Source: a virus
Strand: one strand, 5' to 3'
IMG/VR virus record: IMGVR_UViG_3300024999_000275
Coordinates: 1 to 32,156 of that record
Length of the DNA stretch: 32,156 nt
The position numbers were made by a program, and so were the translations under genes. Below are positions 7,975 to 30,212 of this stretch, piece by piece. The first letter of the stretch is position 1. Every line of letters starts with the position of its first letter. The notes beneath the pieces were generated by a model. The model ran no database searches. It saw only the letters and a list, made by a program, of their open reading frames with translations, and was not told the origin of the DNA.

Positions 7975-8100
7975 AACCTCCCTCCGCTTTAGAAGCGGGG
8001 GATTCTTGGGAACACCTCAACCAATGTTGAAGTTTAACTAAGCTATCCCTGTAGTCCCTACAGTTCTTTAGCACTATGCTAATAGTCGAAGCCCTTCGGC
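7972..8100 (-). ncRNA. omega RNA (reRNA) of the TnpB element
   Basis: In IS605-type elements the TnpB guide RNA is made from the 3' end of tnpB through the right end. Here the end of tnpB and the next ~100 bases have no separate gene, carry the right-end hairpin CCGCTT/AAGCGG, and finish in GGTTCAA. The guide would be the bases that follow outside the element, starting near 7971 with AGATCATAACAAATGG. The 5' end of the RNA is not visible. A 67-aa frame across it is not real. Confidence 0.55.
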
Positions 8101-9168
8101 AAGTATGTTCTTTGCCGCATTTAAGTCTCTGTCGTGTTCAGTATGGCAACTTGGGCATTCCCATGTTCTAAGATTCAAATTTTTAACTTCCTTGTTGCGA
8201 TAGCCACAACATGAACAAAGTTGGCTTGATGGGAATGTCCTGCCTATCACTGAAACGATTCGCCCATACCATTTGGATTTATATTCTAACATGGTACGAA
8301 ATTCAGACCAACCAACATCTGCAATAGATTTAGCAAGTTTATGATTTTTGATCATGTTGCTAGTTTGCAAATCTTCAATGCAAATGATTTGGTTGTTCCG
8401 AATCACCTCAGTAGATAATTTTTGCAAGAAGTCACGCCGACAATTAGCTATCTTTTCATGATGTTTGGCAAGCTTGACTCTAGCCTTATTGCGGTTTTTG
8501 CTACCCTTTTGTTTTCGGGATAGTGAACGTTGGAGCTTGGTAAGTTTTTTCTCCATCTTGCGGTAATATTTTGGATTGTGCATCTTCTCTCCGGTTGATA
8601 AAATGGCAAAATCCTTAATACCTAAGTCGATGCCGACGAATTGATTGACTTCCGGTAATAATTCAATTTCAGTATCGACTAATATGGATACAAAATATTT
8701 ACCTGAAGGATTACGCCTAACGGTGGCACTAATGATCTGACCATCAACTTCTCTAGATTTAGCAAATTTAACGAATCCTAGCTTTGGTAATTTAACCATA
8801 TTATCGACTATTCGTATATTAGAATTAGTGCATTTACTTGTATATGACTGAACCGGATTGCGTTTTGATTTGAATTTAGGATACCCAGTCTTTTCCTTAA
8901 AGAACTTTTGATACGCAAAATCTAAATCTTTCAAGGTGGATTGCAATGATGTAGAATCTGGTTCTTTTAGCCATTCAAATTCTTTCTTTAATTTAGTCAG
9001 CATTGCGGAACATCCATTGTAGTTGATAGTTGCATCATATATTTCATAGGCGTTTTTGCGTTCATTCAAAAAGTGATTGTATACAAAACGATTACATCCA
9101 ATAGTTTTGGCTATTAATACTTGCTGCTCATTACTTGGATACAACCTAAATTTAAACGCTTTATGCAA
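8074..9168 (-). CDS. tnpB: TnpB, RNA-guided nuclease of IS200/IS605 type
   Basis: Full-length, 364 residues. The N-terminal helix-turn-helix region starts [20 protein letters not shown]. The split RuvC nuclease is intact: [14 protein letters not shown] (first Asp, about residue 181), [11 protein letters not shown] (Glu, about 263) and [11 protein letters not shown] (last Asp, about 345). Before the last motif is a four-Cys zinc finger (CSCCG ... CPSCH). TnpB cuts DNA complementary to the omega RNA guide next to a short TAM and helps the element persist at its site. Its promoter (9199-9227) has a perfect palindrome in the spacer, probably bound by the divergent RHH protein. ATG start follows GGAGGTG. 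Confidence 0.95.
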
Positions 9169-13721: not shown

Positions 13722-13755
13722 CATAAAAATAACCCCCACCATTACGGCAGGGGTT
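13722..13755 (-). terminator. terminator of the candidate RNA
   Basis: On the minus strand AACCCC-T-GCC pairs with GGT-G-GGGGTT (13755-13731) around a GTAAT loop, followed by ATTTTTATG. A strong intrinsic terminator. The same ATTTTTATGCCC tail follows the terminator at 26115-26155. Confidence 0.8.
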
Positions 13756-13963
13756 AAATCTTTACTCGTTATATAACTGGTTTACAACCGTCTGATACAC
13801 GGTTTTTTGTGTAGGTATGGACTGATTACCATACATGAAGACTCATTAATCTCCCTGGTAGTGGTCGGGTTAGCTCCCATACCTTTTAGCAGAGGGGTTT
13901 TGTCCCGTAGGAGTTATTAACCACTTTTTCCCACCAGTGCGTCTACGTTTCCGCCACTACACA
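13723..13963 (-). ncRNA. candidate new structured RNA, about 240 nt
   Basis: An independent transcription unit lies between two terminators: promoter at 13969-13998, terminator at 13722-13755. The 5' end TGTGTAG (13963-13957) pairs with CTACACA (13814-13808), closing a domain of about 150 nt. Inside, GTATGG occurs twice (13883-13877 region and 13834-13829) and competes for one CCATAC (13820-13815); GTAGTGG (13960-13954) also matches CCACTAC (13864-13858). A hairpin AACCGT/ACGGTT follows (13786-13804). The longest frame, 32 codons, lacks a properly spaced ribosome site. It does not match tmRNA, SRP, RNase P, 6S or phi29 pRNA motifs I know. Confidence 0.55.
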
Positions 13964-13968
13964 TTTAG

Positions 13969-14006
13969 ATTATACCTCAGTAGTTGCATTTTTTGCAACT
14001 ACTGAG
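13969..14006 (-). promoter_or_regulatory. promoter of the candidate RNA with a perfect 13-bp inverted repeat
   Basis: TTGCAA (13998-13993) and TATAAT (13974-13969) are 18 bases apart. CTCAGTAGTTGCA (13976-13988) and TGCAACTACTGAG (13994-14006) form a perfect inverted repeat with a five-base centre that covers the -35 and most of the spacer. This is an operator layout, implying tight regulation; in RNA from the upstream lysis genes it could also act as a hairpin. Confidence 0.65.
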
Positions 14007-18749: not shown

Positions 18750-18763
18750 TTTCCTGCTCTTTA
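18738..18763 (+). terminator. terminator of the membrane-protein moron
   Basis: GAGCAGGA (18738-18745) pairs with TCCTGCTC (18752-18759), then TTTAC. Overlaps the last codons of the gene. Its stem is nearly the same as that at 16870-16892. Confidence 0.7.
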
Positions 18764-21700
18764 CTTATTCCATAACTTCTTCGCGCCATTTTCGACGGAT
18801 TGCATTGCCTTTGCATCTTTGGCTGCAACTGCTTTACCTGTTAAATTAATCATTTCCGTCTTAATCTCTTTAATCTTGGCGTCCTTCATAGGATCGTCAC
18901 TTGCTTGAATAGAGTTAATTAGCTTAGTCCCCCTGCTCAGCGCATCGCTAACTCCGTTCATTGAATTACGCATATCCTCTTCAGGAGTTAACTTCTTGCT
19001 AGGTATTTTACCGAGAATGTTTTTATCCACTGCGGATGCAGATAATTTGTCTAGTTTATCAAAGAAGTCTGTAGTGGATTGATTACTGAATGTCGGGTCT
19101 GCCACGAATTGAGTGGATAATGTTTTCTTTGCACTTCCCCCCGGTGTAACCAACGGAGATCCAAGTTGACCTATTACTCCGGTGTACGACTTAACGAGAT
19201 AGTCAATCTGCTTAGGCGATAACCCTCCTTCGACCACATTGTTGCTTAATTCACCAATAGCCTTGGCGATAGAAGTAGTTTTCTCGTCATATTGAAGATA
19301 GGGAGAACGCTTGTCCATGAGCATACCTTGGGGAACTATGGCCCGATTAGCAAAGTCCTTATTAGTTGCAATATTCCATGTAGCAGGAGAAATGAAGTTA
19401 CTGTCAATTGGATTGGCAGGAGAAAAGCTAGTAGCTAAGGAATTACCGAATCCTTTGAAGGAATTTTCCTGTCCTTCAGCCTTTCTAGCTACTCTCTCAA
19501 GAAGAGATCCGAATAACACTCCCAATTCTCTTGATTTAGGGATTTTTATAAAAGTTCCATCCTCTTTAGGAATTAAAAAGTTGTTATCCTTGGTGCGATT
19601 ATCTAATGCCTGATAGTTTGGGTTATCCTTATTCACCATGTAGAGCGCAATTTCAGGGGTTGATATTGCCGCACCTGATTTAACTATTGTTTTAAGCGCG
19701 GACTTAGGGCTAATGAATCCGCGAAAGAACTTATCTAGACCGGCTACCCCTGCCGCCAAATAAGGTACTCCCTTGTCTGCGGTTTTTGTCAAATTACCAC
19801 TTCTAGAGAAATTTACAGTAACATCGTTAGACGCGAACAGGGCATCAGTAATATTTCCGGTCTTTTCAAGCACCCTATTGAATTCAGCTAAACGAGGTAT
19901 GGATTCCGTAAGGTTATTAAATTTTTCAACGGACTTAATTGGATGAAGGACTATATCGGCAGTGCCTGTTACTATTTTTCCAATTCTTCCGTCCCCAGCC
20001 TTGCTTGACACATTATTTATAAGCGTGTCTCGCTTCCCGATATTAGTTAGCTTTCCGGCTGATCTTGCTACATCTCCAGAATTAAAGAAGTTTGACCCTC
20101 CGCCTCCGACCGCGTTATATTTTTGCAATCGTGGACCATTGGTTAATATATCTTTCCCGGCCCCAATAAGTCCCACACCAAACTTAAGTGGATTAGATTC
20201 ACTGCCATATATATACGCCGTAGGTATATCCCTGAAAATGTTTCTTATGGCAAAAAGTGGGTTTTTCTGAGTTATTAGACCCTTGAATCCGTTTGTCAAA
20301 GTATCCAGAACAGGTATTTTACCAATAGACTTCGGTAGACCATTCATTGAATCGAGTAACATCTTATCGTTAATTTTTAAATAAGTTGGCTTGCCATCTT
20401 CTAAAACAGAGATAACATTATCTGTATTCGCGAACATCCCATCTTTGGTGGCAACAACCTCAGCAAGTGGTTTCATCTTTTCGGGAGAAGTTCTGACGGA
20501 TTCAAGCAAGCTCTGACCGACCTCGTTGTATTTAGCGGCCCTCACTGTGCGATTAACTAATTGCATAATATTTTCTACAGGGTCAATTATGTCCCTCTCT
20601 GATCCGGTAGCCTTACGAATTGGAGTGCGTTGGCCTGCAAACTTTTGGGACACATTATCGGGAATAGCTTTTTCTAGTTCGCTAAAATCCCTTTGAGTTG
20701 GGAAATAGGATTTATAGGTTTCTCGTAATCCTTTGTAGAGATCCTTGTTAACGATTCCAGTATCTACGCCCCACGTTTTCATAAAAGAATCAAGCCAATT
20801 AACAATGCCATCCCCAACCGTCTTATACTCGGGATGTGCCTCTTCTGCAATCCTAACAGCATCAGTAGACATTTCCGGCGTATAGTTCGCCTGAACGGAC
20901 TTTCCCTCCCTTGATCGGTCAATATTATGCCGTTGACTCATATAGGTCCAGAAGTCCTTCTCTTGCCCCTTGGGGATAGCCTCTACCGTTTTCCTTAAGG
21001 ATCCACCGACTGGATTGCCCTCTTTATCTACAAGAGCAGTAAGGAAGTTGTGATCAACGATTCCGCTAACATTCCTCGTATTACTTGCTAGTTTTCCGAT
21101 ATCGGACTCGGCAACCTTTCCGGCATTAACAATAGGTTGTTGAGTATTAACCGTGGCAGTATAGAATTTATTTAATGCCTCCCTAAATCCTATTTTTTCT
21201 TTTGGCTTACCAATAACGATCTTGCTTTGTGGTTCGGGAAGTTCGGTAATCCCAACAGGTTCAACTCTCGGAACACTCACCCCGCCCGGCCCCTTCAACC
21301 TCATCATACCCCCCGGGCTCTCAATCGCAGCCGCAGCACTTCCACTACCCAAAGGCTTAATCGGTTCGCCGATCGGAGCAGGATTCCCAACCTTTGGCAT
21401 CCCCACACCCTCATCGGGTATCAATGTTCCCCTAATCCTTTGGTCCGGCTCTATCTGAAATCTATTGAGTGGTCCACCTGTCGGAAGTTCAATCCTTGGG
21501 GAAGAAAGTTCTTGCTGTAGTTGCGATGTCTGAATAGGCTCTCTAGGGCGTAAGGATGGCTCTATGACAGGGGCTTGCGTAATTGGTTCCAACGGTACAC
21601 CGCGAGGCTTTAACCCTCCCACAGCCTTGCTTATGCCCTTACCTAGCAAAGAACCTGCTCCGTGCAAAGTAGCTCCGCCCAATGCCATCAATGGAGCTTC

Positions 21701-22354
21701 CTTGAGTCTACCAGCGAATCCCTCTATACCCTCTCCGTCGACTACGCTTTCAGCCGCATTGATTGGTAGAGCGTATGTCGATCCCGCCCTTACCCCTGTT
21801 CCGAGTGCAGGGATTAACGCTTTAGGTATAACGCTAGTAGCCTTCGCAATCGGTGCAGTTTTAGCCAATGCGGATAGGGGCTTCGCTAGTGCGGCATCTC
21901 CGGTCAACCATAGAGGAAGATCGGAAAGGTTACTCCCTGCAAAAGATACTGCCTTTTCTCCTAAAGTTTTCTGTTCGGGAAGAGTTGATAAGTCAACATC
22001 CTTGCCTGCTATCTTTTCAGCCAAAGGAGTTAACGCCCGACCCGCCAATGAGCCAAGCGTTCCCTTTATCCATGCCGCCTTATAGTTTGGTTCTTCTGGT
22101 TGAGTAGGGGCATCCGTTGGTTCATGAGAAGAAAGTAATTCATCCATGCCAATCGGAGAAGAAGGTAAATAATTAGGCAAGGTATCGCTATCCTCTGCTT
22201 TGCGGAAATCAGCTATAGAAGATAATCTCCCTGGTTCTTCCTGTTCCTTCGGTTCATCCAATCCAAAGTACGAATAGGGATTGGGTGCAACTTTATTGCG
22301 CTCGTTTTTTTCATCCAGATTATTTAGTCCAAAGTAAGAATATGGGTCGTTCAT
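18761..22354 (-). CDS. large ejected virion protein with LPD38-type domain, 1197 aa
   Basis: The C-terminal half matches the pattern of large polyvalent protein domain 38: NPLFAIRNIFRDIPTAYIYG, then ESIPRLAEFNRVLEKTG and ALFASNDVTVNFSRSG, then EIALYMVNKDNPNYQ and FIKIPKSRELGVLFGSLLER (about residues 690-990). Such giant proteins ride in the head of podovirus-like phages and are ejected into the host with the DNA. The N terminus repeats a PYSYFGL motif twice, followed by a Pro-rich linker to about residue 390 and alanine/glycine-rich helices that may insert in membranes. It follows the transglycosylase gene, as internal virion proteins do in T7-like order. Confidence 0.85.
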   Translation of the reverse strand: MNDPYSYFGLNNLDEKNERNKVAPNPYSYFGLDEPKEQEEPGRLSSIADFRKAEDSDTLPNYLPSSPIGMDELLSSHEPTDAPTQPEEPNYKAAWIKGTLGSLAGRALTPLAEKIAGKDVDLSTLPEQKTLGEKAVSFAGSNLSDLPLWLTGDAALAKPLSALAKTAPIAKATSVIPKALIPALGTGVRAGSTYALPINAAESVVDGEGIEGFAGRLKEAPLMALGGATLHGAGSLLGKGISKAVGGLKPRGVPLEPITQAPVIEPSLRPREPIQTSQLQQELSSPRIELPTGGPLNRFQIEPDQRIRGTLIPDEGVGMPKVGNPAPIGEPIKPLGSGSAAAAIESPGGMMRLKGPGGVSVPRVEPVGITELPEPQSKIVIGKPKEKIGFREALNKFYTATVNTQQPIVNAGKVAESDIGKLASNTRNVSGIVDHNFLTALVDKEGNPVGGSLRKTVEAIPKGQEKDFWTYMSQRHNIDRSREGKSVQANYTPEMSTDAVRIAEEAHPEYKTVGDGIVNWLDSFMKTWGVDTGIVNKDLYKGLRETYKSYFPTQRDFSELEKAIPDNVSQKFAGQRTPIRKATGSERDIIDPVENIMQLVNRTVRAAKYNEVGQSLLESVRTSPEKMKPLAEVVATKDGMFANTDNVISVLEDGKPTYLKINDKMLLDSMNGLPKSIGKIPVLDTLTNGFKGLITQKNPLFAIRNIFRDIPTAYIYGSESNPLKFGVGLIGAGKDILTNGPRLQKYNAVGGGGSNFFNSGDVARSAGKLTNIGKRDTLINNVSSKAGDGRIGKIVTGTADIVLHPIKSVEKFNNLTESIPRLAEFNRVLEKTGNITDALFASNDVTVNFSRSGNLTKTADKGVPYLAAGVAGLDKFFRGFISPKSALKTIVKSGAAISTPEIALYMVNKDNPNYQALDNRTKDNNFLIPKEDGTFIKIPKSRELGVLFGSLLERVARKAEGQENSFKGFGNSLATSFSPANPIDSNFISPATWNIATNKDFANRAIVPQGMLMDKRSPYLQYDEKTTSIAKAIGELSNNVVEGGLSPKQIDYLVKSYTGVIGQLGSPLVTPGGSAKKTLSTQFVADPTFSNQSTTDFFDKLDKLSASAVDKNILGKIPSKKLTPEEDMRNSMNGVSDALSRGTKLINSIQASDDPMKDAKIKEIKTEMINLTGKAVAAKDAKAMQSVENGAKKLWNK

Positions 22355-22366
22355 TCTCTCATCTCC

Positions 22367-23905
22367 TTACCTTGACGTTGGGTCAAAGCCTGGGTATCTT
22401 CTTCGCTTTGTGTAATCACCTATATCCAGAAGGTCAACACCCTTGTTGGCGAATATAGAAGCGTTAGACCTGAAGTAATTTAAAATTTCATCCTCACCCT
22501 TGCCCTGCGCGTCCATTGAGTCAACAAGCGCAATTGCTTGGTTTTGTGCAATTTTAGCATCCTGGCCGGATACCTCACTAGGCTTTAATGCCTTAGTTTT
22601 TAACGGAGCTATTTTCACATTCCCCAAAATACTAGGCACATAATTTTGCGTTTCGCTTGTCAAGTATTTAGACACATCACTCCAATTTCTACTTCCAGCC
22701 TTACTAATAGCATTATCCACAGCACCAGGTCCAGCATTATAAGCCGCCAACGCTAATTCATTGTTTCCATATTTCTGCAGTTGTTGGCTAAGGTATTTCG
22801 TCCCGCCCATTATGTTCTGATCAACGCTAGAGGTATCAGTTACCCCCAACTCCCTCGCGGTACCAGGCATAAGTTGCATTATCCCACTTGCTCCCGCAGA
22901 ACTGATTGCGCTAGGATTCCCTCCGCTCTCCTGATTAATAACCGCACTGATAAGTCCGGGTGACACTCCGTACTGTTGAGCGTATTTATTGATCGATGAT
23001 GAGTATTCGCCCACACTTGCGCCGCCTCCGCTACTAGGCCACTCACCCGTTACATTCAACTCATTCACGTTGGCATTTTGTTGCGAAATCTTACGATTTT
23101 CAGAATCACTGTAATTACCAGAATTCAATGCGTCATACTTATACTGATTATCGAGAGTATCCTTCGACATGGTGTAGTCGAAGTTTTTCTGCTTCCATTC
23201 ATCGTCAAGCGCATCTTGCCTAAGTTTTTCATCATACTTTTTCTGCTCAAGCGTATCCATACCGAGGTATTTCCCTGTTGCCACCGATGTCTTTACCGGG
23301 ATGTCTACCATATCTTTGGCTTGATTTATTTCCATCTGTTGACGGGCCAGCGTTGGGATACCTCTATCTGAATCTACCCTAGGCGCAGCGTTTTGAGCTA
23401 TAGCAGCCCGAGTCTGTGACGAAAGATCACCACTGTACTCGTTGTAGGCCTGTCGAGTACCGACAGCGTCCTGCCCAAATACACGTTGTGCCCCGTTTAG
23501 CTGTTCATCTGTTACGCCTGTACCGGTGCCGCCTAAAAATACATCTCGTGCTGACAATTGAGTTTTACCCGGAACATAAAGATTTACATTTCGACCCTTG
23601 TTTGCGTCTACGTCTGCTTGTAGACCATAAGTCCTTGAGCCTGAACTGTCAGGTTGGTCAGGCGCAGCATTTGTTGGGGTTCCATTTTCGATGCTGTTTA
23701 GATATTGTTCTAAGCCGTACGAAGTATCTTCGGAAGTATCGCCATGTACTCTTGTAGCTCCGTTTAATTGAGAATCATCAATGCCTGTTCCAGGGCCACC
23801 GAGAAATATATCTTGCGCGGTAAGCTTGGTTTGCCCTGGAATATATAATTGAACATTCTTCCCTTTGTTGACCAAGACATCATCCTGTAGGCCATAAATA
23901 GCCAC
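22367..23905 (-). CDS. virion lytic transglycosylase (SLT domain)
   Basis: Residues about 305-430 form a Slt-type goose-lysozyme fold: LISAVINQESGGNPSAISSA (catalytic Glu), GASGIMQLMPGTARELGV, and ELALAAYNAGPGAVDNAI. It would cut peptidoglycan locally during DNA entry. The N-terminal 130 residues contain a tandem duplication: GKNVQLYIPGQTKLTAQDIF / GRNVNLYVPGKTQLSARDVF, each followed by GGxGTGxxDxQLNGAxRV. I choose the GTG at 23905 by the same AAGAAAGGATGAT ribosome region as the neighbour at 24459; an ATG at 23914 overlaps that site. Confidence 0.9.
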   Translation of the reverse strand: MAIYGLQDDVLVNKGKNVQLYIPGQTKLTAQDIFLGGPGTGIDDSQLNGATRVHGDTSEDTSYGLEQYLNSIENGTPTNAAPDQPDSSGSRTYGLQADVDANKGRNVNLYVPGKTQLSARDVFLGGTGTGVTDEQLNGAQRVFGQDAVGTRQAYNEYSGDLSSQTRAAIAQNAAPRVDSDRGIPTLARQQMEINQAKDMVDIPVKTSVATGKYLGMDTLEQKKYDEKLRQDALDDEWKQKNFDYTMSKDTLDNQYKYDALNSGNYSDSENRKISQQNANVNELNVTGEWPSSGGGASVGEYSSSINKYAQQYGVSPGLISAVINQESGGNPSAISSAGASGIMQLMPGTARELGVTDTSSVDQNIMGGTKYLSQQLQKYGNNELALAAYNAGPGAVDNAISKAGSRNWSDVSKYLTSETQNYVPSILGNVKIAPLKTKALKPSEVSGQDAKIAQNQAIALVDSMDAQGKGEDEILNYFRSNASIFANKGVDLLDIGDYTKRRRYPGFDPTSR

Positions 23906-23929
23906 GCTCATCATCCTTTCTTGAGAAAT

Positions 23930-23955
23930 AGAGAGAGTCGATTAAGACTCTCTCT
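23930..23955 (-). terminator. hairpin between two virion genes
   Basis: AGAGAGAGTC and GACTCTCTCT, ten perfect pairs with a six-base loop, followed on the minus strand by ATTTCTC. A weak terminator or RNA-processing site that could set the ratio between the 163-aa protein and the transglycosylase. Confidence 0.45.
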
Positions 23956-23967
23956 TGGTACTAGGTG

Positions 23968-24459
23968 TTATGATTGCAGCACTCCGTTTACGTAGTATTT
24001 ACGAGCCACCGTATTAGTACCCCCTGTTTTAGTGCTAATTGTTTTCTTCCCGTTATAATAACCAGTCAGCGTTCCTTCTGATATCCCATTATCAAAATTG
24101 TGCTGCTTCTGCGTTTCTGCAAATTCCTTCGCCCATTGTTCCATCTTGATCTTAAATTCATTCTGTGCGTTAAACTGCGTTCGTAATTCCATGCCAGGTA
24201 CTCCGCGATAGGCGTACACGCCCTTACCTGGTCCACCTGCTAACTGGTTGTCAGCGGTCATGTAGACCGTGCTTTTTGGGTTATTATATGGATTCCCCGA
24301 CTTTGTAATGGGTTGGGCTTGAGCTTGAGGTTGAGGTTGGGTTTCTCCCAATCCCGCTTGCATAGCCGCAACCCGATTAGTCGCCGCAGGATCAGCTCGG
24401 CTGGGTATAGGAGTTCCATCCATGTAATATCCGGGTCTATTTGGGTCAACCGCAGCCAT
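23968..24459 (-). CDS. virion-associated protein, 163 aa
   Basis: A Pro/Gln-rich N-terminal third (ETQPQPQAQAQPITKSGNPY) leads into a small domain (VYMTADNQLAGGPGKGVYAY) and a helix, ending in two beta strands (GTLTGYYNGKKTISTKTGG). The DNQLAGGPGKGVYAYRG segment faintly recalls the duplicated LGGxGTG unit of the transglycosylase. Start at ATG 24459. Its place between the coiled-coil protein and the transglycosylase suggests an internal or tail-tip virion protein. Confidence 0.6.
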   Translation of the reverse strand: MAAVDPNRPGYYMDGTPIPSRADPAATNRVAAMQAGLGETQPQPQAQAQPITKSGNPYNNPKSTVYMTADNQLAGGPGKGVYAYRGVPGMELRTQFNAQNEFKIKMEQWAKEFAETQKQHNFDNGISEGTLTGYYNGKKTISTKTGGTNTVARKYYVNGVLQS

Positions 24460-24474
24460 GTTTATCATCCTTTC

Positions 24475-26085
24475 TTATTTCTCTACGTAGGTAGGCATCC
24501 CGTTTATATCGCGTGATTTTTTATATCCCTTGGGAAGGGTTCCGTATCCTATTTGGTCAGAATACATAGGGATATAGTATTTGTCACCATGCGATTTATA
24601 GTATAAGCGATACCCAACTAACTTTGCCCCGGCTGCATTTTTAGAAGGAGCAACCTCATCAGGACCAACAACCTTATAGTTTTTCCACTGAACCCCAGCT
24701 TTATCGGTCGTTGTTCCGTTAAGGTCTAGGGCTATATTACCCGATTTATCAAGAACGTCAGTCTCGGGAGTTTCAATAACAGGATCTGCCACATCTACGG
24801 GAACTACACTGACTGTCCCATCTGGATTAACGACAGCTCTGTCTGTTCCAGAACTAACGTCTCCACCATAAACCCCAGTTGCACCATAAACCGCAATACC
24901 ATTGTTAAATTCAGTCTGGTCAACGGACGCATTATAATTCAATGCAGTCATAGTATTGCTAAAGCCATTTTGAGCTATTTGAGCAGCAAGTTGTTCCTTA
25001 GATAATCCGAATGACTCAGCAAACTGAGAAGCAGCATCATCGATTTGTTGTTGCGTTTGCGCTGAAGCTACGGCGAATTGAGCAGCGTTTTGAGCTAGTT
25101 GAGCAGCATTCTGATTAGCCTGGTTGGTTATTTGAGTATCGGCTTGACCAGCAGTTCTCTCGAATTGTGATGCCTGATTATCAATTTGAGTATCCGATTG
25201 ACCAGCAGTTCTCTCAAATTGAGAATTAGACTGTGCCAAAGATGTGGCATATTGTGAAACCTGACTATCGATCTGCTGTTGTGTTTGTGCAGAGGTTACG
25301 CCGAATTGACTTGCATTTTGCTCCAAGCCTTGTCTAAACTGCGAAACCTGATTATTAATCTGTTGTTGCGTCATATTAGACGTAATTCTGAATTGCTCAT
25401 TTTCCTGAGCTAAAGTGGATGCATACTGTGCCACTTGATTGTTAATTTGTTGCTGCTGAAGCCCTGTCGTCGTGTTGAATTGATATTGCTCATCTGCTCG
25501 CGCTTGAGCATCTAATACAGCCTTTAACGCTCCGGTTTGCTTGTCTGACTCAAGTTGAGTCCTTAACGCTAATGCTCCATCGTTGTACTGCGTTGTGCCA
25601 AGGGCTAACTTCCCAGCAATGTCATTGAGTGCCGCGACCCTTGCCGAATCCGCTTCAGTCAGAGCATTGCCCGTGGATGTATCGAAGTTATTTTGGTCAC
25701 TCTGTATACCTTGCAAGGCACTCTGCCTATTTAAGTCAATCCCCAGCATCTGACTTCGGTTTGCGCCCGAGTTGTATGCTCCACCCATTGAATTTAGGGC
25801 TTCTGTTCGACGCTGTGTTGCTGCTGCATCTGAGCTGGTAGCGTCTTTTTGAGCTTGATACTTGGGAAGTTGTGTCTGTCGTTGAAGATTGATCGCATTA
25901 GTAGCGCTTTGATAATTATTCGCAACCGTGGCGTTTTGCGCGTTGTAAGCCTGTTGGTCGCTCTCCCATGCTTGACGAAGTACATCTTGCTTAGCGGTAG
26001 CCGCCGCCGTTGCGGTTGCATCGTTATAGTCAACAAGAGTTTGCTGATAATCGTCTTGGGGAAGGGTGGTTGTATTCGTAGCCAT
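24475..26085 (-). CDS. Q/N/A-rich coiled-coil virion protein with ~30-residue repeats, 536 aa
   Basis: About residues 205-375 are degenerate repeats built on QxQIxNQVSQxxxxLAQNxxQF, for example TQQQINNQVSQFRQGLEQNA and TQQQIDSQVSQYATSLAQSN. The first 200 residues are also Ala/Gln-rich helix. After about residue 400 comes a globular C-terminal domain (AGAKLVGYRLYYKSHGDKYY). Long helical proteins at this position in podoviruses form internal virion or ejection proteins (gp14/gp15-like position). ATG follows AAAGGAGG; a terminator precedes the gene. Confidence 0.75.
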   Translation of the reverse strand: MATNTTTLPQDDYQQTLVDYNDATATAAATAKQDVLRQAWESDQQAYNAQNATVANNYQSATNAINLQRQTQLPKYQAQKDATSSDAAATQRRTEALNSMGGAYNSGANRSQMLGIDLNRQSALQGIQSDQNNFDTSTGNALTEADSARVAALNDIAGKLALGTTQYNDGALALRTQLESDKQTGALKAVLDAQARADEQYQFNTTTGLQQQQINNQVAQYASTLAQENEQFRITSNMTQQQINNQVSQFRQGLEQNASQFGVTSAQTQQQIDSQVSQYATSLAQSNSQFERTAGQSDTQIDNQASQFERTAGQADTQITNQANQNAAQLAQNAAQFAVASAQTQQQIDDAASQFAESFGLSKEQLAAQIAQNGFSNTMTALNYNASVDQTEFNNGIAVYGATGVYGGDVSSGTDRAVVNPDGTVSVVPVDVADPVIETPETDVLDKSGNIALDLNGTTTDKAGVQWKNYKVVGPDEVAPSKNAAGAKLVGYRLYYKSHGDKYYIPMYSDQIGYGTLPKGYKKSRDINGMPTYVEK

Positions 26086-26114
26086 GTTCTACCTCCTTTG
26101 TAGGAAATGGGCAT

Positions 26115-26155
26115 AAAAATAAGCGTCTCCAATCGCTTTTACCTCGCTTATTTTT
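26115..26155 (-). terminator. terminator inside the virion gene cluster
   Basis: AAAAATAAGCG (26115-26125) and CGCTTATTTTT (26145-26155) are perfectly complementary, with T runs on both sides, so it can work in both directions. It overlaps the end of the membrane-protein gene and separates tail genes from ejection-protein genes. Confidence 0.65.
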
Positions 26156-26555
26156 GATCTGCTTCTTTGTCTCCCAAAACAATGTACTTGTTGTTGACAA
26201 TAGTTATACCTTTAACCCCTAAGTAAATAAGGCAGGGAATACATATCGTCAATGCCACAAATACCATATTTAACATTATGTCAGTTCGCACATCCCAACT
26301 CCTAACTGTTAGGTACTTGCTATATTTAGTCTTTGGAGTGTCGTACTGCTTAAAGTCTGTGATTGATGCCCTATTTTCCGCAATTGATTCCGCCGTTGCT
26401 TCACGAGAGTAGGGTATTGAATTAGCCAAGCCGAATACTTCCTGTTCAGTCATTAGGTTTATTGGGTATTTGCCACCCTCGAACACCACGAACGAAACAA
26501 ACAGGACGTTGGATATCAATATTGCAAGAACAATCTTAACAAGGTTTTTTCTCAA
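26148..26555 (-). CDS. membrane protein, 135 aa
   Basis: Two membrane helices: VKIVLAILISNVLFVSFVVF at the N terminus and MLNMVFVALTICIPCLIYLG near the C terminus, with about 70 polar residues between them. TTG start without a clear ribosome site, overlapping the previous gene by 20 bases, so coupling is likely. Lying just after the tail-fibre genes, it may be an extra host-range, exclusion or lysis protein; function not known. Confidence 0.55.
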   Translation of the reverse strand: MRKNLVKIVLAILISNVLFVSFVVFEGGKYPINLMTEQEVFGLANSIPYSREATAESIAENRASITDFKQYDTPKTKYSKYLTVRSWDVRTDIMLNMVFVALTICIPCLIYLGVKGITIVNNKYIVLGDKEADQK

Positions 26556-26778
26556 GAATTATCACGGCTTTCTCTTCTGCCGTAATCCATTCGTTCACGA
26601 CAAAGGTATCAAGGTCAACTTCGGTGATATGCTCGTCAAAAAGAAGAACACCCATGATTTTTAAGATTTCAAGCCTTGTTAGTAATCCTTTGGATACGAG
26701 CAGAGTTGAGGTTAGAAGGGTTTGAATAGATAATAATCCTTTTTTAATCAGACGAGAGAAAATTGATTCTTTACACAT
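26536..26778 (-). CDS. hypothetical protein, 80 aa
   Basis: Basic amphipathic helical N terminus (SIFSRLIKKGLLSIQTLLTS) and acidic C-terminal half (EHITEVDLDTFVVNEWITAEE). Small genes like this follow tail-fibre genes in many Gram-positive phages (XkdX or Hoc-like position) but the sequence does not match well. ATG behind GGGGTGG, overlapping the previous stop. Confidence 0.55.
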   Translation of the reverse strand: MCKESIFSRLIKKGLLSIQTLLTSTLLVSKGLLTRLEILKIMGVLLFDEHITEVDLDTFVVNEWITAEEKAVIILEKKPC

Positions 26779-27049
26779 TTATTTCCACCCCCTGAAGCAT
26801 CAACATTTGAGCATACATGATATCGAAGTCATTTTGGATAGATAGAGTTTGTTCTTGCAATAACTCAATTTCTGTTTTTAGCGGAATCACAGGCGGTAAA
26901 ATAGGTGGTTCGATGTCTTGTACTTCATAATCATCAATGATACCGCCAAAATTAGGAAGTACATTTAAAATTATTTCCTGCTCTGTTGTCATATTAGAGG
27001 GTACTGTGCCACAAAACTTGCTATCTGATTTTCGTACTATTGTTTGCAT
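26771..27049 (-). CDS. small protein linked to the tail fibre, 92 aa
   Basis: ATG overlaps the fibre stop (TAATG). Beta-type N terminus (MQTIVRKSDSKFCGTVPSN), a Pro-rich linker (PPILPPVIPLKTE) and a C-terminal coiled coil (LLQEQTLSIQNDFDIMYAQM). The layout, binding head plus coiled coil directly after a fibre gene, suggests a fibre chaperone or accessory tip protein. Confidence 0.6.
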   Translation of the reverse strand: MQTIVRKSDSKFCGTVPSNMTTEQEIILNVLPNFGGIIDDYEVQDIEPPILPPVIPLKTEIELLQEQTLSIQNDFDIMYAQMLMLQGVEINV

Positions 27050-28500
27050 TAGCCAAACGCCTCCCATGTGCAGTTTGCAACACTTATCGTCTTTGCGGTA
27101 CTGCCATTAGTATTCCGTAATATAATTTCCAAGTTGCCCCCATTCATCCTTACGCTATACAGTATAATGTCAGATCCTAGCCCTGAACCTGGACATAACT
27201 GTCCATCTACTCCGTAATACAAGGCTGTTGTTCCTGCCCCAAACCCCATTGATGCGGCTTCATTTACATTAGTAGTAAATATACAACTAGCTCCCGTTGA
27301 ACTAGCGCTTTTAATCATTAATACGCCTTTTGTGGCGTTAAACCCAACGCTTATATTTTTTGTATAATTACTACTTGCGGCTATAGATGTTGTTGTGTCT
27401 GACCAAGTTCCACTAGCTGACTTTATCCTTTTATCTAACTCTACCTTCGCCCCCGCCGGAGTTACCGCCAATGTTGTGCTGGTTCCTGTTGTAACTTCTG
27501 CGTCTGTGGCAAGCTCGACTATTCCTTTTACCGTGTCGGAAGCATCGACAATCGCAACCTTAATTCCGCTAGTTACTTGCCACCAATCATTAGCGGAGTC
27601 CCATTTGACAGTAATGATTGCTCCTGCCTCAATGTCACCTGTTTCAAGGGCATCGTTGTAATACTTACGCAAGTCCTTTGCGCCACCGCCAGCATCCAAT
27701 GTTGCTGCACCGGTGTTGGCGGTATTACAGAATATGTCTAGCGTCATACCTTCTATATAGGAGACGATAGCAGGACTTAGGACAACAACATAAGCATCTG
27801 TGCTCCCTGCATCTTTCTTATAATATCGCGCATAATTAGCCAAAAGCGTTGCAACCGAATTACTACTTGCTGCATTGGTTGTATGCCCTGCTGTCGGAGT
27901 ATCCTCGACATTGCCCGTTACGTCACTTAAAATAGCAATGTCACTTGCCGCACTTGCGCCAACTACTTTAGCCCTGCCACTTGCATCCCGAACTATAATC
28001 GTGCTCGCTGTCGCTGCCGATACAGCACCGTGGGCAGTAGTAGTATTTGCTGAATGGTTGGCAATGGTATCCGCATTATTCTTCACTGTTTCTATTGTTC
28101 GTCCTGCTCCTGCCAAATTATCCAACTCAGCTTGAGTCGCAACATCTGCCGCGCACTTTGCCGCCGTGACGGAACCATTAGCATACTTAGCTGTAGTTAA
28201 CGAGCCGTCAGGTATCGCCCCTAACACCGCAGCAACTATTTGAGCATAAAGCCAATCCGCTCTATCTCTTACGTTCGTTCCGCTTCCTGCTATGGTCTCA
28301 GGTATGCCAAGGCTGTCTGCGCCACTTGTCCCATCTGTAATTGCATTAAGTAAAGATACAACCGCATTTAACGCAACCCTTACCTCTTCGGGTGGAGAGT
28401 CAAGCTTTGCCCACACTTGAGCAGGAGCCAAGACGCTATTCAGGTCGTACGGTTGCCCTACGAACTTTTCAGTTATTGCCCCCATTGTTGGAAATGCCAT
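27049..28500 (-). CDS. tail fibre protein, 483 aa
   Basis: About residues 325-355 carry the tail-fibre repeat GIVELATDAEVTTGTSTT followed by LAVTPAGAKVELDKRI, the Phage_fiber_2-type signature. Before it lie Thr/Ala-rich beta repeats; the C-terminal 130 residues (WSDTTTSIAASSNYTKNISV ... SVRMNGGNLEIILRNTNGS) form a receptor-binding tip-like domain. It starts at ATG 28500, overlapping the nozzle stop (TAATG). Should bind the host surface and set host range. Confidence 0.85.
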   Translation of the reverse strand: MAFPTMGAITEKFVGQPYDLNSVLAPAQVWAKLDSPPEEVRVALNAVVSLLNAITDGTSGADSLGIPETIAGSGTNVRDRADWLYAQIVAAVLGAIPDGSLTTAKYANGSVTAAKCAADVATQAELDNLAGAGRTIETVKNNADTIANHSANTTTAHGAVSAATASTIIVRDASGRAKVVGASAASDIAILSDVTGNVEDTPTAGHTTNAASSNSVATLLANYARYYKKDAGSTDAYVVVLSPAIVSYIEGMTLDIFCNTANTGAATLDAGGGAKDLRKYYNDALETGDIEAGAIITVKWDSANDWWQVTSGIKVAIVDASDTVKGIVELATDAEVTTGTSTTLAVTPAGAKVELDKRIKSASGTWSDTTTSIAASSNYTKNISVGFNATKGVLMIKSASSTGASCIFTTNVNEAASMGFGAGTTALYYGVDGQLCPGSGLGSDIILYSVRMNGGNLEIILRNTNGSTAKTISVANCTWEAFG

Positions 28501-30212
28501 TACTTCACCTTCTTCCTCAGCTTGAAACTAATCATAACCGCTAACATGGCTATACTGCGATTAAGCGTATTGTTTCTGATTCTAAATTGAAAATACTCAG
28601 CCTTGATTCCTATTTTCTCACCCTGCGATTTAGGGTAATTTGGTGCTTCCGTTCCTGCGTTGAAGTATGAAGCGTGGAAGTATCGGGCATCAAAAATCCC
28701 TGATTCTTGCAGAAGAACTATGTCCTCTTCCCCTGAATCAGAGATAAGCGTTAAGGTGTGTTCTGTTCCGTAAGATGCTTTAAATGTAAGATTGATTCGC
28801 TCAAACTTCTTTATCCATTCCCTGCCGCCTAAGAACATAAGAGGTGAAGTCCACCATGCGTCTATTGCTACGCCATCGTCGGAGTAAGGGTTATCGTTGG
28901 TTATTTGCTGTTCGGAATAGATGAGCCCGTTTACGTTATCGCCCATATAGAGAACGTCTGAACGCGTCAGAAAGTACCCTGCATTGGCATAAATACCAGT
29001 GTAGGGATACCAACAATAAACTCCACCTGCCAAGTCTGAATATTCAAGGTCCAGAACCCAAACCTTGTCTTTGATGTGCAGAAGGTATTTATTTCCGCTT
29101 ATTTCAGCATGGGCTAAGGCTAAGTCTGCCTTCGTGTTGTCAAGGATTCCGCTTGCTATGCCGTTTTTTCCGTTAACGCCTTGACTGACTATTTTGCAGT
29201 TAGCTTGTCCTTTGGTTAAGCTCGCCCAAGTCCATACTACACCTTTATCTGAGAGAGCTAGAAGACCATTCTGAGCAGGGAGTACAGTTCGCGGTGCGAT
29301 ACATCCAAACTCATCACTTAGACCGAATGTAGGGACTGTGACCGAACCAGAAGTAGAGTCCACATTAATGTATGAATACCACTGCACGAATTCATCTCCG
29401 GGTTCTTTGTAGGTGATAAGGTAATCGTTCATTCTGCCCCAACCCGTAACACTTCGAGAGTCGTTACCAACGCTTATGTCAGCATCTTCAGGAAAGTATG
29501 TTGGGTCGTAAAACCATGAATAACGAACTATATTTGGGTAGGTTGGATGTCCCGAAATGAATACAGCAGTATTATTGTTACCCGCGTACTCAATAGCCAT
29601 GGTGCATTTAGCGATAAGGGTTTGGTCCATGAGCGCGGTTGCCTCTAATTGAATTTGCAGGGTATCAGTTCCAGCAGCAGGGGCAGAGGTGAAGGTTGCT
29701 GTCCATGTTGTACGATTGAAGGTGAAGTCTGTACCTTCTACTTTTTCTACTTCATAAATGTACGCTTTAAATAGATTTGCTGAGAGGGTAATTGGGGTTA
29801 CGCCATCAGATTGATATATTTTGTCGAGTACAAACGCTGTCGCTATTCCGTCAGGGTCATAGCTTGTTTTCCATTTGTCACTCAAATGATTGAACTTTTC
29901 GTTTGCTGTTCCGCTTGTGCCATCAGGTTTTTTACCTAGCGTAACAGTTGGGACCTTGGCAATATCCGTCACGTTACCAGCCGTTGTGCCGTTATAGTAG
30001 ACGTATTCATTGCCCGTGAGGAAGTAAACCTTGTCGTCTGATTCAAATGAAGTTGTTGGAGCATCGGTTAAACCTGAAAGGATTCCTTCGAACTCTGTCC
30101 ATAAAGAAAAAAAGACGGATGCTGATGCGGTTCCATCTAACACCGTTGCTGTATCTACTCCGTATGTTCCATCTTTACCGTCTGTACCTGCCCAAAATGT
30201 TGCAATTGCCAT
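28500..30212 (-). CDS. tail nozzle / DNA-stabilisation type protein, main part, 570 aa
   Basis: Built of many beta strands with propeller-like blades: DDKVYFLTGNEYVYYNG, NTAVFISGHPTYPNIVRYSW, GRMNDYLITYKEPGDEFVQW, QNGLLALSDKGVVWTWASL, NKYLLHIKDKVWVLDLEY, DVLYMGDNVNGLIYSEQQ. The pattern fits the beta-propeller nozzle family (P22 gp10 / T7 gp12-like) that forms the lower tail tube of podoviruses. It lacks the usual N-terminal segment, which I find as a separate gene at 30645-30914. ATG behind AAAGGGGG, partly paired with CCCC upstream. Confidence 0.7.
   Translation of the reverse strand: MAIATFWAGTDGKDGTYGVDTATVLDGTASASVFFSLWTEFEGILSGLTDAPTTSFESDDKVYFLTGNEYVYYNGTTAGNVTDIAKVPTVTLGKKPDGTSGTANEKFNHLSDKWKTSYDPDGIATAFVLDKIYQSDGVTPITLSANLFKAYIYEVEKVEGTDFTFNRTTWTATFTSAPAAGTDTLQIQLEATALMDQTLIAKCTMAIEYAGNNNTAVFISGHPTYPNIVRYSWFYDPTYFPEDADISVGNDSRSVTGWGRMNDYLITYKEPGDEFVQWYSYINVDSTSGSVTVPTFGLSDEFGCIAPRTVLPAQNGLLALSDKGVVWTWASLTKGQANCKIVSQGVNGKNGIASGILDNTKADLALAHAEISGNKYLLHIKDKVWVLDLEYSDLAGGVYCWYPYTGIYANAGYFLTRSDVLYMGDNVNGLIYSEQQITNDNPYSDDGVAIDAWWTSPLMFLGGREWIKKFERINLTFKASYGTEHTLTLISDSGEEDIVLLQESGIFDARYFHASYFNAGTEAPNYPKSQGEKIGIKAEYFQFRIRNNTLNRSIAMLAVMISFKLRKKVK

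Follow-up and report, generated by a model that had tools for sequence, protein, structure and literature searches.

The 32,156-nucleotide viral DNA stretch analyzed here (IMG/VR record IMGVR_UViG_3300024999_000275; hereinafter, the window) carries a discrete promoter-RNA-terminator unit of about 240 nt on the minus strand (13963-13723), located between two phage gene blocks, after the lysis genes. Comparison of homologous sequences indicates that the product is a real structured RNA, with a fold that is kept in distant relatives through matched base changes. By the same comparison, the RNA is patchily distributed, being present or absent and relocated between related phages like an optional add-on. 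We consider it fairly probable that this is an autonomous non-coding RNA gene, an optional cassette of podovirus-type, partly temperate phages of Paenibacillaceae and their close relatives, which acts in trans through a protein partner. The host of the source phage probably belongs to the relatives of Paenibacillus.

The RNA gene in the window

The sigma-A promoter, the perfect inverted repeat over the -35 element and the strong terminator that had been proposed from the sequence of this region were all found. The 5' end of the transcript would lie at about 13963, just 5' of the outer stem described below, and the 3' end in the T-run at about 13725.

13723-13963, minus strand: transcribed RNA with promoter and terminator; 99.6% identity over 259 nt to the copy in contigs L005 and L007
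13969-13998, minus strand: promoter, TTGCAA (13998-13993), 18 bp, TATAAT (13974-13969)
13730-13756, minus strand: intrinsic terminator stem-loop followed by T5; -17.2 kcal/mol, equaled by 2% of random positions
13976-14006, no strand assigned: inverted repeat over the -35, perfect 13-bp arms (13976-13988 and 13994-14006), 5-bp spacer

The 13-bp inverted repeat is unique in the window even when up to 3 mismatches are allowed (0 further copies expected by chance). This palindrome is a candidate operator, and in the lineage of the window, a dimeric regulator bound to it would switch the RNA gene. The tight regulation that had been suggested for this gene is compatible with such control but would be lineage-specific, given that the palindrome is lacking in L005, where an extended -10 promoter (TGATATACT) precedes the near-identical copy.

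The terminator previously interpreted as isolating the lysis operon upstream probably marks the end of a second small RNA instead. This putative RNA of approximately 65-75 nt (14094-14016, minus strand) is preceded by an extended -10 promoter of its own (TGGTATAAT) and contains a core that is strictly conserved (AGAAAAAGAGAAATCTTTTGCGGAGCGAAAT). It is kept in L003, which lacks the main RNA, and in L005, with changes in the inner stem, and has no convincing match in the phage database.

Homologues and their relationships

Eight divergent relatives of the window RNA were found. Starting from the small gene at 14310-14107, upstream and within the lysis block, three IMG/VR contigs were identified. 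The RNA copy in L005 and L007 is identical to that in the window over about 255 nt, whereas the adjoining lysis DNA of L005 is 72-82% identical, the best common coding segments are about 97% identical and the flanks have diverged. The L004 and L006 contigs represent approximately the same phage as L005 (99.6% and 100% identity on the two sides of the RNA) and contain a 56-nt deletion inside the RNA that removes one strand each of helices P1 and P2. The closest relative of the lysis module, L003, encodes the most similar upstream protein (90%) and yet has no RNA; at this empty site, just a short terminator-like stretch is retained.

Short patterns derived from the RNA identified further IMG/VR contigs with a diverged core of about 70-100 nt; an additional homologue, L038, was recovered later. 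The copies in the genomes of Paenibacillus harenae and Cohnella nanjingensis equal those in two of the viral contigs, and the most diverged member, L036, comes from a third Paenibacillaceae genome. A covariance model built from five distant relatives, with the window excluded (R1), matches the core of the window RNA at 54 bits, and model R2 at 77 bits. Carriers account for 3 of the 400 Paenibacillaceae genomes, and the order-wide search with the exact pattern and the class-wide search with R2 recovered only the known carrier; because the large scans used strict filters and scored few candidates per genome, more distant homologues may have escaped detection. When annotated phages and plasmids were searched with the RNA by BLAST, there were either no matches or short chance ones. 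A pattern match within a coding region (L037) and contigs in which the pattern alone is present (L008-L013, L015, L018, L020, L022, L023) were discarded as chance matches.

The virion genes of the window occupy 18761-30212 on the minus strand and include those for a 570-aa virion protein, which shares 28-30% identity with a protein of Pagevirus (podophages of Bacillus megaterium), and for a protein of 1197 aa containing an LPD38 domain. Pagevirus Pascal, in which the relative of the window virion protein is about 30% identical, has no match to the RNA.

Structure of the RNA

The folding energy of the window transcript (-76.0 kcal/mol, z -3.5) beats 200 of 200 shuffles. When the terminator, which supplies much of this energy, is left out, the z-score is only -1.9, so that folding energy alone is no proof of a structured RNA and comparative evidence is needed. 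The helices considered are as follows, all on the minus strand.

13837-13940: conserved core (P1, P2, P3, variable tip and 3' hairpin); R1 54 bits, R2 77 bits
13933-13937: P1 5' strand, CUGGU, pairs with ACCAG at 13859-13855; compensatory changes at 2 pairs
13855-13859: P1 3' strand, ACCAG, pairs with CUGGU at 13937-13933
13920-13924: P2 5' strand, GUGGU, pairs with 13865-13861; one compensatory pair, via L036
13861-13865: P2 3' strand, ACCAC, pairs with GUGGU at 13924-13920
13904-13907: P3 5' strand, CGGG, pairs with CCCG at 13869-13866
13866-13869: P3 3' strand, CCCG, pairs with CGGG at 13907-13904
13837-13854: 3' hairpin (P5 position); 4 of 4 family pairs covary; pair probabilities in the window 0.74-1.0
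13957-13963: outer helix 5' strand, UGUGUAG, pairs with CUACACA at 13814-13808
13808-13814: outer helix 3' strand, CUACACA, pairs with UGUGUAG at 13963-13957
13815-13834: lineage-specific hairpin GUAUGG...CCAUAC; pair probabilities 0.98-1.0

Covariation among the homologues supports P1, P2, P3 and the 3' hairpin. In alignment A6 (nine sequences, six of them close; 22 pairs), 98.5% of the cells are standard pairs, and nine pairs show compensatory changes, with 26 cells changed on both sides and 0 one-sided changes; 0 of 500 shuffles reach the observed values, and slid versions are at most 47% paired. Because A6 was fitted to the covariance model, the count was redone on a plain MAFFT alignment made without reference to the structure, in which 92.6% of the cells are paired compared to at most 50% in slid versions. 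Compensatory changes in P3 include C-G to A-U in L024 and G-C to U-A in L036, and the 3' hairpin loop UAGCAG is found in 7 of the 9 sequences while every pair of the stem changes; the exceptions are the window and L014, which have lost this loop. Between P1 and P2, about 9 nt bulge out on the 5' strand, and the P2/P3 stack contains a 12-nt bulge on the 5' side only, in which UAAUAAC, directly following the P2 5' strand, is conserved. The putative P4 (CUCU/GGAG) shows zero compensatory changes and is broken once, in L038. P2 and P3 are not favored in the minimum-energy fold of the window RNA (probabilities of about 0.17 and 0.03, respectively).

The helices that covary among the homologues are thus other than the outer stem that the original prediction had named for a test. 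The proposed pairing of the 5' end with a downstream segment is predicted in the window with pair probabilities of 0.80-0.99, but is confined to the lineage of the window and L005, with two identical copies and zero sequence variation, and this stem was rejected as a feature of the RNA family. The hairpin at 13815-13834 was not found in the distant homologues either. The fold switch, in which two GTATGG segments were thought to compete for one CCATAC, was rejected on both energy and conservation: the three segments are present in the window, but CCATAC would pair with the first GTATGG only at a cost of 5.5 kcal/mol, with a probability of 0.0, and CCATAC is missing from the other homologues.

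A non-coding RNA outside the known families

Among the Rfam 15 covariance models, none matches the window RNA at or above the gathering score, in agreement with the original view of a new phage RNA, and permissive Rfam scans of three homologues gave nothing credible. ARAGORN and Rfam detect neither tRNA nor tmRNA in the window RNA; a tmRNA-like reading of UAAUAA was dropped, there being no tag frame and no tmRNA match. There is also no match to HEARO, which argues against a TnpB/IscB guide (omega) RNA, and the RNA-family model has no match at the TnpB gene of the window, about 4.5 kb from the RNA. This gene, of the IS605 type, occupies 8074-9168 on the minus strand.

As originally stated, the approximately 240 bases contain no credible gene: the coding frame is not conserved, and stops and frame-changing indels within the core differ between homologues. 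It is highly improbable that the conserved product is a short translated peptide (AUG-GGA-GCU-AAC..., MGANPTT[N/T]R). Nine codons after the AUG are conserved in 8 of 9 homologues, with two silent changes (codons read by eye); however, no Shine-Dalgarno sequence precedes the AUG, L036 has no AUG, the C-termini are of variable length and frame, and in L024 the silent change is exactly the compensatory change in P3.

Genomic context and patchy distribution

In other phages, the RNA appears to be driven by an extended -10 promoter or is placed after a tRNA gene. TATAAT-like elements are located 11-13 nt upstream of P1, where a -10 would be expected, in L017, L019, L021, L024 and L038, and are perfect in L017, L019 and L038. 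No promoter-like -10 was found just upstream of the RNA in L014, L016 and L036; a tRNA gene lies upstream of the RNA in L016 and L014. The RNA adjoins a tRNA gene in only two phages, tRNA-Leu(GAG) in L044 and tRNA-Arg(TCT) in L041. A terminator follows the RNA in 7 of the 9 homologues, counting the weaker one in L019, and no clear one was found in L021 or L024.

The RNA is located upstream of terS in L016, L017, L019, L021, L024 and L036, mostly after a gene for an ArpU-like activator and often within a terminator-bounded leader. In L038, it lies between the portal and scaffold genes. The copy in L005, like that in the window, comes after the lysis genes, and L014 carries it near lysis genes in a small islet on the reverse strand, together with tRNA-Arg. 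The combination of several kinds of locus with an own promoter and terminator suggests a product acting in trans.

A cis-acting leader, that is, a transcribed structure controlling read-through into the following operon, seems unlikely. The common position ahead of terS would fit such a role, as would the intrinsic terminator found ahead of the late genes in the majority of these phages, the co-directional next gene in the loci examined, and the late genes downstream on the same strand in most relatives. However, the leader terminator is equally present without the RNA (L048, L051, L052, L057, L058), in L005 the RNA is separated from the next gene by a promoter-like TTGTAT-17-TATAAT (read by eye), the deletion in L004 leaves the neighborhood intact, and copies are also located after the lysis genes (window) and between the genes for portal and scaffold (L038). 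The HK022 put RNA and the lambda pR'-6S-tR' leader are transcribed, terminator-bounded leaders before phage genes, a layout often shared by the present RNA, which nevertheless has its own promoter, is found at loci of several kinds and is missing from most phages with the same leader layout. In EAR and other processive antitermination RNAs of Bacillales, a structured RNA is located at the head of an operon, and RNAs of the put/EAR type make RNA polymerase read through downstream terminators; in contrast, the present RNA has no Rfam match and, in the window, is followed by its own terminator.

The trans-acting RNA would then be a cassette that uses the late leader as a transcribed, permissive landing site. 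Several other elements were observed in this leader. A hairpin directly follows a late-promoter-like motif, with a long stem that differs in sequence between phages:

Leader hairpin after ATAGGGAA: L017 10937-11010, L051 6807-6890, L052 6069-6150, L057 5868-5950, L058 6477-6560

The leaders before terS in L057 and L058 contain a related element, GTGACGGATAC...CCGTCACTTTTTTT, where other phages hold the RNA. Elements resembling tRNA-Leu (GGTGGCGGAA... with a T-arm-like end) are present in the late leaders of L043 (8120-8350), L048 (2130-2330) and L044 (6977-7070); all score below the Rfam tRNA threshold and ARAGORN calls only the one in L044. These are possibly degenerate tRNAs or another phage RNA.

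Among 14 contigs with closely related portals, some of which are fragments, the RNA is present in two, both known carriers, and missing from 12; most of the latter have terL, and most retain, ahead of the late genes, a non-coding leader closed by an intrinsic terminator. These counts bear on a packaging RNA comparable to phi29 pRNA, one of the roles originally suggested, which we now regard as very unlikely. Both are compact phage RNAs, the present one often lies near packaging genes, upstream of the terminase genes in several phages, and the tested carriers have phrog_156 portals (L038, L044, L045 and, by 71% identity, L042). The phi29 pRNA is needed by the packaging motor and hence expected in all phages with that motor, whereas the present RNA is patchy among phages sharing packaging genes, is deleted internally in one close phage, and is associated with terminases that differ among carriers; moreover, the pRNA covariance model has no match in it and a phi29-type packaging system was not seen. 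This patchiness speaks against involvement in packaging and in favor of an accessory RNA that acts in trans. The lysis-timing and copy-control roles have no support either. Overall, the structured, stand-alone and uncatalogued RNA gene of the original prediction is backed by homologues, covariation, promoters and terminators, but the fold switch and the three suggested functions are not.

Proposed function

Under the trans-acting model, the RNA would form a rod interrupted by bulges (P1-P2-P3), with a tip that varies and followed by the 3' hairpin, and would most likely offer its conserved bulges and hairpin loop, above all the UAAUAAC bulge, to a protein partner of host or phage origin, in an accessory function during infection or lysogeny. 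That the whole fold is kept together with conserved bulges favors a protein partner over simple antisense action. A base-pairing regulatory RNA, antisense or sponge, directed at host or phage transcripts is accordingly rather improbable: small RNAs typically have this size and a promoter and terminator of their own, and UAGCAG and UAAUAAC are conserved single-stranded stretches, but conservation extends to the entire fold rather than one seed, and the window and L014 lack the UAGCAG loop.

The nearest kind of RNA is represented by ROOL and GOLLD, phage RNAs with a function not known that are often found near tRNA islands (PMC12286853). Similarly to these, the present RNA is a phage- or prophage-borne non-coding RNA, although it lies beside a tRNA gene in only 2 phages. 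ROOL and GOLLD exceed it several-fold in size and are each described by an Rfam model that does not match it, and the sequence analysis gives no indication of a nanocage.

To our knowledge, few phage RNA genes are neither tRNA nor antisense, and pRNA, ROOL and GOLLD have drawn much attention. More tentatively, the RNA described here might represent a new class of compact mobile phage RNA, a small counterpart of the large ornate RNAs, which in trans, via a protein partner, disarms or redirects a host function. This is a short RNA with clear boundaries, present in Paenibacillus harenae and Cohnella nanjingensis prophages and with natural carriers and non-carriers, so that its function would be amenable to deletion and trans-complementation.
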